Of a stretch of DNA of 52,627 nucleotides, positions 38,634 through 51,084 are shown piece after piece (the first letter of the stretch is position 1; each line of letters begins with the position of its first letter). The stretch covers positions 1 to 52,627 of IMG/VR virus record IMGVR_UViG_3300013093_000064, one strand, 5' to 3'. The position numbers were made by a program, and so were the translations under genes. The stretch comes from a virus. Under the pieces are notes generated by a model. It searched no databases. It was not told the origin of the DNA and saw only the letters and a list, made by a program, of their open reading frames with translations.

Positions 38634-38675
38634 AAAAACCCGCTAAAGTGTGCATTATTAAGAGGCATAGCGGGT
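38634..38675 (-). terminator. Rho-independent terminator after groEL
   Basis: On the minus strand ACCCGCTA pairs with TAGCGGGT over a loop of about 22 bases, followed by TTTTG. It lies 22 bases after the groEL stop. Confidence 0.75.
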
Positions 38676-48426: not shown

Positions 48427-49722
48427 ATGCCCATAATCGAACATACCTCACACGCTGGTGTTAACTTTGAGCCTAATAAAAAGATAGGTTACTATTTGGT
48501 TGGCAATGAAATCTATTACAATAAGATTCAAGCCATGTTAGATGCCAGTCGACGTAAACAAGAAGTTAAATGGTTTTTTAATGAGGATGTGTTTGTCAAG
48601 TATCCTTGGCATATAGAGCCAGAAGAAAGTCTACGCGAATTATATCGTCAACGTGCTCAACAGCTAAGAGACTCTTACGACTATATTAGATTAGAGCTCA
48701 GTGGAGGAAGTGATAGTACCACCGTTGCTTATAGTTTCTTACTAAACGGTATACATTTAGATGAAGTTATCTTTCGTTATCCCAAGCAAGGTGAAAAGGG
48801 TGTAGTAGGCAATATATTTGACACCAGGGCCGAAAATACTCTAAGCGAGTGGGAGTTTGCCGCAAGACCATTACTACAGTGGATTGCTACTAATTATCCT
48901 GCTACAAAGATCACTGTACACGATTACAGCGAGGACATGATTGCCGAATCCGACTCCAAAGACGAATCTTGGATTTTCCGCACCAAGCATTATCTACAGC
49001 CTGGCCATATACACAAGTTTGATGACTCATTCCTTGGGGATCAACATCGGATAGTTGAAAGTAAAAACAAGGTATGTTTACTCTATGGAGTAGATAAACC
49101 CAAGGTATTCATTAAAGATGGAAAATTCTTTATGTATTTTATTGACGGCATTGCCAGTTATACAAATGCCACGGTAGGAGATACATCAGGGGTAGTAAAT
49201 GAATATTTCTTCTGGGCACCCGAATCATGTCGTTTATTGGCCAAACAAATACACGCGGTAAAAAATTGGTTCAGTATGCCACAGAATTATCAGATGCAAA
49301 GTGTATTACAGTGGCCCAATAATAACTTTGCCCAGCGTACCCTATATGAACAATTGGTAAAGCATATTGTTTATCCCGATTACGATTTTCATACATTCCA
49401 AACTGCAAAGCCAACCAATAATGTTTATAACGAAATGGACCATTGGTTCCACGTTAATTTTAAAGATTCTAAATTGTATAATTCGTGGGAAGCCGGCATT
49501 GACTACTTGGTCAACAATGTTGATTTGGATTTTGTTGAATACATTGATGGCCGTGCAACAAACATAAAATCCTTCGACAGTCTGTATTATTACTTTGGCG
49601 ATTCTACTATTCCTGAAGTAGCAGGTGGGTTTAAAACAAAACCTCTAATCTTAGAGCACAAAAAAGAAATAGCCCAGAGACAACATAAACATGTTATCAA
49701 TGGGCAAATAGTAATTTATTAA
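48427..49722 (+). CDS. PP-loop ATPase (adenylating enzyme), plus strand
   Basis: 431 residues. IRLELSGGSDSTTVAYSFLLNG has the PP-loop SGGSDS at 92-97, which binds the pyrophosphate of ATP in enzymes that adenylate a substrate before amidation or thiolation (asparagine synthetase, TtcA, QueC, TilS). The rest has many aromatic residues and no identified family motif: no Cys pair for thiolation and no glutaminase domain. It is the longest plus-strand gene, faces the tRNA genes and has its own late promoter. tRNA modification and peptide or sugar amidation are both possible. Confidence 0.7.
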   Translation: MPIIEHTSHAGVNFEPNKKIGYYLVGNEIYYNKIQAMLDASRRKQEVKWFFNEDVFVKYPWHIEPEESLRELYRQRAQQLRDSYDYIRLELSGGSDSTTVAYSFLLNGIHLDEVIFRYPKQGEKGVVGNIFDTRAENTLSEWEFAARPLLQWIATNYPATKITVHDYSEDMIAESDSKDESWIFRTKHYLQPGHIHKFDDSFLGDQHRIVESKNKVCLLYGVDKPKVFIKDGKFFMYFIDGIASYTNATVGDTSGVVNEYFFWAPESCRLLAKQIHAVKNWFSMPQNYQMQSVLQWPNNNFAQRTLYEQLVKHIVYPDYDFHTFQTAKPTNNVYNEMDHWFHVNFKDSKLYNSWEAGIDYLVNNVDLDFVEYIDGRATNIKSFDSLYYYFGDSTIPEVAGGFKTKPLILEHKKEIAQRQHKHVINGQIVIY

Positions 49723-49991: not shown

Positions 49992-50076
49992 TGGTGCCCC
50001 AAGCGAGACTTGAACTCGCACACCTTGCGGTACCGGCTTCTAAGACCGGCGTGTCTGCCAATTCCACCATCGGGGC
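49992..50076 (-). tRNA. tRNA-Leu(UAG)
   Basis: Class II tRNA on the minus strand: acceptor GCCCCGA, anticodon loop CTTAGAA (anticodon TAG), long variable arm, encoded CCA. It reads CUA. Its first base (50076) directly follows the 3' arm of the structured RNA (50077). Confidence 0.93.
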
Positions 50077-50364
50077 AAAGGTAAAAAGTTTAGGTACATA
50101 AAATCTGCTTTACAACTATAGATTGTTTACTCCCGAGATATCGCTCAGGCTCAGTACCATACAATAAGTAAAACTGTTTGCAAGAAAACTAATTATCGTA
50201 TGTGTTAACAAAATATCAGCGGTTTCGTAGCTTTGAAATACTGGTGCCGCTTCGGGAATACCCGATATTGCAAAATTTTCGAGCGGCTCATCTTGCGTTG
50301 CTACATACTCTGCTTCCTATTAGTATCAGATGGTCGTCACACCTGTACCTAAACTTTTTACCTT
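50077..50364 (-). ncRNA. Structured non-coding RNA of about 288 nt, undescribed as far as I can tell
   Basis: The ends pair perfectly over 22 bp: 50344-50365 with 50077-50098. Inside are helices 50322-50326/50305-50309, 50300-50304/50227-50231, 50282-50287/50246-50251 carrying the stem-loop 50261-50265/50252-50256, a 10-bp helix 50193-50202/50158-50167, 50144-50149/50132-50137 and 50122-50126/50112-50116. Three of these have a G-U pair only if the minus strand is the RNA. A consensus promoter (50371-50399) puts the start at about 50364, and the 3' end meets tRNA-Leu. No RNase P, tmRNA, 6S or group I motif was found. T4 also has stable RNAs in its tRNA cluster (rnaC, rnaD). Confidence 0.75.
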
Positions 50365-50370
50365 TAATTG

Positions 50371-50399
50371 ATTATACTGTATTTACAATACAATGTCAA
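50371..50399 (-). promoter_or_regulatory. Consensus sigma70 promoter TTGACA-N17-TATAAT for the ncRNA
   Basis: Both hexamers match the consensus and the spacer is exactly 17 (-35 at 50399-50394, -10 at 50376-50371, minus strand). Start is expected near 50364, the first base of the 22-bp terminal helix. It also reads into tRNA-Leu and the genes behind it. Confidence 0.88.
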
Positions 50400-50517
50400 T
50401 GTAAATGGCAGTTATTTTTATGTCAGGAAACTGCCAAACCCCGTGTACACAGCCCATCCCACGTTTCGTGTACAGCGGAAGCAGACGAATCGTCTCTTGC
50501 AAGTGTGGGTCTGCCGA
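50400..50517 (-). other. Non-coding interval with two further hairpins
   Basis: Between the phosphoesterase stop and the ncRNA promoter. A 7-bp stem (50407-50413 with 50429-50435) and a 6-bp stem (50481-50486 with 50509-50514, with an inner GACG/CGTC hairpin) are present, plus two copies of CGTGTACA (near 50442 and 50468). No T run follows, so these are not clear terminators. The plus-strand frame here is not convincing as a gene. Confidence 0.45.
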
Positions 50518-51084
50518 TTACATCGCAGGACCGTTGCCGTTCCTAAATCCTACTTCTCCGCCTTCGGCTTCGATACGCTTGATAACATCTTCAAACAGGA
50601 TAGGAGCAAAGTCTGGAGTTTGTTCTACGCAAACGCAATGGTAGCGAAGATCAACTACACCATCTTTCATAACACGATTACTGTGTAAATGACCGTGGAT
50701 GTTTACTCCAAAGCGACCTAACGATTCTTCGTGAATAGGAATATGACTTAGAATCATTCCGTTCATAACGTGATATGCACGAAGTTCACGGAAGTACTGT
50801 CTGTATTCATCATCACGGAAAATATCGTGGTTACCGCGGATAAGAACTTTGTCTCCGTTAAGCCGAGCAAGGGTGCTCATAGCACGACGGTTAATAACAA
50901 CGTCACCCAGGTGATATACTTTATCATTTGGACGAACACGTTCGTTCCAAGCCTTAACCATAGCTTCATCCATTTCCGCAGGATCATCCCACGGGCGAAG
51001 TTTTGTAACACCATCGTTACGTGTAAAGCGACATACACCCGCATGACCAAAGTGCGTATCGCTAACTAAAAATACTGCTGGCAT
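50518..51084 (-). CDS. Metallophosphoesterase (calcineurin-like)
   Basis: 188 residues. FLVSDTHFGH (Asp-x-His, 9-11), VYHLGDVV (Gly-Asp), LIRGNHD (Gly-Asn-His-Asp), LSHIPIH (His) and NIHGHLHSN (Gly-His-x-His) give the full dimetal site. Similar short enzymes are common in phages and may act as phosphodiesterase or phosphatase on nucleotides or nucleic acids. GAAAGGAGG precedes the ATG. The next gene upstream ends 15 bases away. Confidence 0.88.
   Translation of the reverse strand: MPAVFLVSDTHFGHAGVCRFTRNDGVTKLRPWDDPAEMDEAMVKAWNERVRPNDKVYHLGDVVINRRAMSTLARLNGDKVLIRGNHDIFRDDEYRQYFRELRAYHVMNGMILSHIPIHEESLGRFGVNIHGHLHSNRVMKDGVVDLRYHCVCVEQTPDFAPILFEDVIKRIEAEGGEVGFRNGNGPAM

Follow-up and report, generated by a model that had tools for sequence, protein, structure and literature searches.

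A conserved structured RNA with a long closing helix, encoded within and beside the tRNA arrays of large phages

What does a phage encode between an exact consensus promoter and a tRNA gene when the intervening DNA begins and ends with the two halves of a perfect inverted repeat? The question is raised by the window analysed here, a stretch of 52,627 nucleotides representing a genome fragment from an uncultivated phage (IMG/VR record IMGVR_UViG_3300013093_000064). Its minus strand carries, in order, the promoter, a 22-bp arm, 245 bases, the complementary arm and tRNA-Leu(UAG), with the following main features:

50371..50399, minus strand: sigma-70-type promoter, TTGACA-N17-TATAAT, exact consensus
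50077..50365, minus strand: structured RNA of ~289 nt, a type II member of the family described below (fold z = -4.9; match to covariance model R1; 18-member covariation)
49992..50076, minus strand: tRNA-Leu(UAG) (ARAGORN: tag), directly 3′ of the RNA, a neighbour conserved in 5/5 type II members

An earlier note, made from the sequence alone, had proposed a minus-strand structured RNA gene with its 5′ end at the closing helix, and the layout that it described is borne out. The arms, 50344-50365 and 50077-50098, complement each other perfectly over 22 bp; TTGACA (50399-50394) and TATAAT (50376-50371), separated by a 17 bp spacer, predict a +1 at ~50364; and the tRNA-Leu placed by ARAGORN abuts the 3′ end of the RNA. 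The predicted folding energy is -84.2 kcal/mol, compared with -60.4 +/- 4.9 in dinucleotide shuffles, a value reached in 0/200 shuffles, and region 50405-50530 folds no better than chance (z -1.2). When exact inverted repeats of at least 12 bp were scanned in the window and phage loci, the arms proved to be the longest with a span of 120-600 nt in 168 sequences, the near-identical contig L096 excepted. The sole large plus-strand gene within this otherwise minus-strand tRNA region is a 431-aa ORF (48427-49722) with an SGGSDS motif (PP-loop like) and no Pfam match.

Relatives were sought in a starting set of 80 viral loci, many of them short fragments, related through the phosphoesterase gene beside the window RNA. 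Several of the longest inverted repeats in the scan abut tRNA genes, and one of these, L067 5188-5442, is similar to the window RNA; nhmmer searches with both RNAs as queries led to L011 and L046, and these three were the only loci in the starting set matched by R1. The remaining members came from DNA patterns based on conserved motifs and from iterated searches. An initial pattern drawn from the arm sequence mostly retrieved an unrelated coding motif, apparently DPSLGTGGD, and was abandoned. The family now comprises at least 18 distinct environmental sequences, mostly of large phages: the window and 17 homologues from IMG/VR phage contigs, the longest of which are 354, 357 and 374 kb. It falls into two clades, type I (n=13: L067, L181, L186, L011, L189, L173, L178, L183, L171, L175, L182, L046 and L203) and type II (n=5: the window, L191, L200, L192 and L201), which the RNA tree splits with full support, although long branches meet at that split.

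Extra pattern searches yielded no new members, yet the family is probably larger than 18, since a pattern search misses any member in which no motif is retained exactly. Members have been seen in metagenomic phages only. Among the matches listed from blastn searches with the window RNA or L181 RNA against 50,697 phage records, only flanking tRNAs appeared, and R1 found no members in Phosso, Atu_ph07, Cassandra, PA5oct or T4, where it returned only hairpins of 29-33 nt in three of the five. A scan of bacterial genomes gave a single 20-mer match (L190), which was rejected as a member. Seventeen phage records searched in full gave one match apiece, one of them merely partial (G010 / L184). The latter, L184 2040-2340 on the minus strand, is an inter-tRNA stretch with the P5/P6 module CCCCGUG...AAUAUCGGAUACUUCCGAGGGUAUAA (E ~4e-7) that is otherwise divergent, and it may be a remote relative of the family. 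No description of the family was found in the literature searched, which largely lacks subscription journals.

Evidence for a genuine RNA comes from the pattern of substitutions. A structure of 61 pairs was derived by hand on eight type I members, in which pairing holds in 97.7% of cells and two-sided changes occur at 22 pairs, where shuffles give 7.6 (MAFFT-only alignment). Covariance model R1, built from those eight with the window left out, matches the window RNA over the full model (1-254) at 100.6 bits, E = 5e-28, and also recovers the other members. The window RNA forms 51/61 of the R1 pairs; the other ten coincide with gaps, most of which are in the variable 3′ domain. In the alignment of all 18 members, which is fitted to the model and hence biased towards structure but agrees with MAFFT-only alignments, pairing is kept in 97.7% of base-pair cells and 45/61 pairs have changed on both sides, against a shuffled mean of 22.4 and with 0/500 shuffles reaching 45; the covariation score is 0.50, against 0.17 when shuffled and <= 0.085 when slid. 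A lack of compensatory change in homologues had been set beforehand as a result that would overturn the proposed gene, and such change is seen. RNAalifold alone, applied to the five type II members, recovered P1-P4, P6 and P7, with compensatory changes in 34/77 pairs. Because of the extent of pairing and the excess of two-sided changes over shuffles, we conclude that this is a real, conserved and previously uncatalogued RNA family. The window holds a conserved, single-copy, stranded RNA gene. Since compensatory mutations have preserved the structure across 18 or more distinct sequences, the RNA is almost certainly useful to the virus.

The helices that make up the window RNA, all on the minus strand, are these:

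50344..50365: P1 closing helix, 5′ arm, 22 bp, perfect inverted repeat
50332..50343: P2 hairpin GGU-GUGACG-ACC, both-side changes in 2/3 pairs, 100% paired
50327..50331: P3, 5′ strand AUCUG, partner 50103-50107, 100% paired, AUUUG/CAAAU in L046
50317..50323: P4, 5′ strand C-U-(A bulge)-AUAG, partner 50116-50121, covariation
50300..50304: P7, 5′ strand GUAGC, partner 50227-50231, both-side changes in 5/5 pairs
50282..50287: helix GCCGCU, with AGCGGC at 50246-50251, around hairpin P6 (window on the R1 model; type II RNAalifold)
50252..50265: P6 hairpin UCGGG-UAUU-CCCGA, the most conserved hairpin, 100% paired
50227..50231: P7, 3′ strand, after conserved AUUUYAAA, 18-member covariation
50158..50202: type II specific helix CAUACGAUAA/UUAUUGUAUG, variable 3′ domain (RNAalifold, five type II members, with both-side changes at several pairs and disruption of some)
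50132..50149: type II specific hairpin CCUGAG/CUCGGG, with hairpins like it in L200 and L191 and less well supported in L192/L201
50116..50121: P4, 3′ strand CUAUAG, 18-member covariation
50103..50107: P3, 3′ strand CAGAU, after conserved GUUGNAAAG, 18-member covariation
50077..50098: P1, 3′ arm, abutting tRNA-Leu, perfect inverted repeat, covariation

P1 ranges from 18 to 27 bp across the family, and 16 of the 18 bp modelled have changed on both sides with 99.4% of cells paired (18 members). P4 conforms to C-N-bulge-GUGG paired with CCAC-N′-G, where N:N′ is occupied by five standard pair types, and the window has AUAG/CUAU in place of the GUGG/CCAC found elsewhere. The loop-closing pair of P6 shows an A-U/G-C exchange in 7/18 members. 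Family helices also include the P5/P6 hairpins and a 3′ domain that varies between types; in most type I members P8 bears a GNRA-type loop, and the type I alignment contains P11, an anticodon-like hairpin of 5 bp and 7 nt with U at loop position 2, which is absent in window-type members. Conserved unpaired segments are present, and many unpaired bases are invariant. The structure originally drawn for the window was mostly right. Of the three U-G pairs on which its strand assignment drew, 50197/50163 and 50147/50134 belong to helices retained, wholly or partly, in relatives, but the helix containing 50122/50116 is contradicted, as bases 50116-50121 pair with 50323-50317 in P4, which has the support of family covariation.

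The genomic setting differs between the clades. In type II, the promoter ends 4-12 nt 5′ of P1, 4/4 other members sharing the arrangement seen in the window, and tRNA-Leu(UAG) begins 0-20 nt after the RNA in 5/5. Type I RNAs are flanked by tRNA-Thr(UGU) on one side and by tRNA-Ser or a different tRNA on the other, or lie near that locus; in seven members P1 begins 0-5 nt past the 3′ end of a tRNA (Ser or Val), and in six it follows promoter-like sites of varying quality, several in the same arrangement as type II (3-12 nt from the closing helix over both types) and those of L178, L183, L171 and L046 being of lower quality. The 5′ end of P1 is placed in two ways, by a promoter or by the 3′ end of an upstream tRNA. 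Downstream neighbours include tRNA-Leu, tRNA-Thr(UGU), a DctP-like gene with a redoxin-like gene after it, a 53-aa ORF and another ORF, and because this neighbour varies the RNA is not the leader of one gene. Together with the one match per record, these contexts describe an RNA whose position is stable, whose 5′ end is defined by either of two means and whose downstream gene is not constant. Placement of that end by a promoter or a preceding tRNA supports release by tRNA-processing enzymes, and with the varying neighbours it gives the appearance of a single-copy, trans-acting, structural RNA.

No constantly linked partner protein was found in the family loci. The DctP-like and redoxin-like genes, although frequent near type I RNAs, are missing near the window, L067, L189, L173 and L182 and were rejected as obligate partners. 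The occurrence of DctP-type solute-binding protein and redoxin-like genes in a phage tRNA array, as at +294..+1280 from the RNA start in L178, is an observation in its own right, and in L171 they are duplicated on both sides of the RNA. A 72-aa ORF upstream of the RNA in L178, with homologues in 8 loci near the tRNA array, may encode a small protein resembling RNA polymerase omega/Rpb6 (Pfam PF01192, where E 5e-4 falls short of the cutoff).

Comparison with Rfam 15 matched the RNA to no known family. At gathering level, an abiF-like hairpin was the only match in the whole window apart from tRNAs; with E relaxed to 10, the RNA stretch gave only chance-level matches besides tRNA, with no match to models of RNase P RNA, tmRNA, group I/II introns or 6S, and the window RNA has no tRNA-like domain. 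The abiF hit (38638-38674, minus strand), just over threshold, directly follows the groEL stop, resembles an intrinsic terminator (stem and T-run) and is probably not abiF.

In location and style the nearest analogues are GOLLD and ROOL, phage and prophage non-coding RNAs near tRNA islands whose function is unknown and which form RNA cages; GOLLD members are often > 800 nt, and ROOL is 659 nt in the solved case (PMC12286853). Like GOLLD, the window RNA is a structured, phage-encoded RNA adjoining tRNA genes, and like ROOL it has multiple helices and no known protein partner. It differs from both in size and from GOLLD in fold, and neither model matched the window RNA or L181 RNA in cmscan at E <= 10. 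T4 rnaC and rnaD (species 1 and 2 RNA; NC_000866 70908-71171) offer another parallel as stable RNAs within a phage tRNA cluster, stability being the T4 feature, but they are 139 and 119 nt long and rnaC ends in a tRNA-like T-arm, unlike the window RNA. The earlier note had invoked these T4 RNAs and GOLLD, and homology to either was not found: nhmmer with rnaC/rnaD hit T4 itself only, and R1 found nothing in the T4 genome. Processing stems of pre-rRNA also close an RNA beside tRNAs with a long perfect helix; the window helix, however, runs from the predicted start to the tRNA and leaves almost nothing outside to trim.

We favour, with moderate confidence, the interpretation that this previously uncatalogued phage family consists of non-coding structural RNAs acting in trans. 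In type II and part of type I the RNA would have a transcript of its own, started at its promoter, and in the rest of type I it would be excised from a tRNA transcript. Host tRNA enzymes would set the ends that face tRNAs; in the window, RNase P cleavage at the 5′ end of tRNA-Leu would free its 3′ end. P1 would clamp the ends and protect the RNA, and the conserved core P2-P7, with its invariant loops, could be where a partner binds; that partner would most likely belong to translation or tRNA metabolism, or else be further copies of the RNA. Action would take place during infection, as GOLLD and ROOL are thought to act. More tentatively, the family may belong to a class new in function: large phages might deploy it as an abundant assembly made of RNA only, say, or as a counter-defence factor based on RNA, issuing from tRNA arrays as one of several unrelated long-stem RNAs there.

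Other explanations account for parts of these data. A role as a decoy, in which the RNA would act as a mimic of, or a trap for, a host RNase or an anti-phage tRNA nuclease and so shield the adjacent phage tRNAs, would fit its constant location within or beside tRNA arrays and its long perfect double-stranded stem, a typical substrate of RNase III-like enzymes. We consider it unlikely, as the RNA lacks a tRNA-like domain and the anticodon-like P11 is absent from window-type members; because type II has no P11, anticodon mimicry is not a common function and was rejected. It seems improbable that the RNA works in cis, as a leader or processing helper for the downstream tRNA transcript: all five type II members lie directly upstream of tRNA-Leu(UAG), but type I RNAs with the same core precede tRNA-Thr, the DctP-like gene or other ORFs, and the conserved core is more complex than a leader needs.

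An antisense or small regulatory RNA directed in trans at host or phage mRNA could have its own promoter and conserved unpaired segments; heavy structure and the failure to identify a terminator or Hfq-type tail make this a poor prospect. Invariant unpaired bases and the GNRA-type P8 loop would suit a ribozyme or ligand-binding RNA, for which we see slightly less prospect, there being no resemblance to an Rfam ribozyme or riboswitch at E <= 10. Finally, a perfect 22-bp repeat with 245 bp between its arms could suggest a MITE-like DNA element whose terminal inverted repeats merely resemble an RNA helix. The chance of this is negligible, given a single copy per record in a syntenic position, arms that differ among relatives with compensation, and internal helices that covary; covariation already refutes it.

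The family bears on a wider problem, the debated purpose of the big tRNA arrays that large phages carry. Proven by covariation, located in such arrays, absent from Rfam and not detected among the phage isolates searched, it offers a defined molecule for testing. Relatives have several other long-stem RNAs in their arrays, which suggests that tRNA arrays hold a store of structured RNAs yet to be discovered. L059 4769-4969 and L058 4941-5138 are mutually homologous RNAs of ~200 nt with 18-bp exact arms and no Rfam match, not homologous to the window RNA, and the L059 copy lies between tRNA genes. L055 6777-6977 and L064 4590-4796 form a further family of ~200 nt, also between tRNA genes and without an Rfam match. 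Closed, tRNA-flanked RNAs of 136-238 nt are present in the arrays of related phages at L045 1446-1614, L019 1219-1386, L020 290-527 (with L008 and L010), L051 3716-3855 and L028 1138-1273, with no Rfam match in the loci scanned (all but L008 and L010). At L058 12316-12558, in a phage contig, a sequence cut short by the end of the L058 stretch matches the Rfam permuted tmRNA at 77.8 bits.
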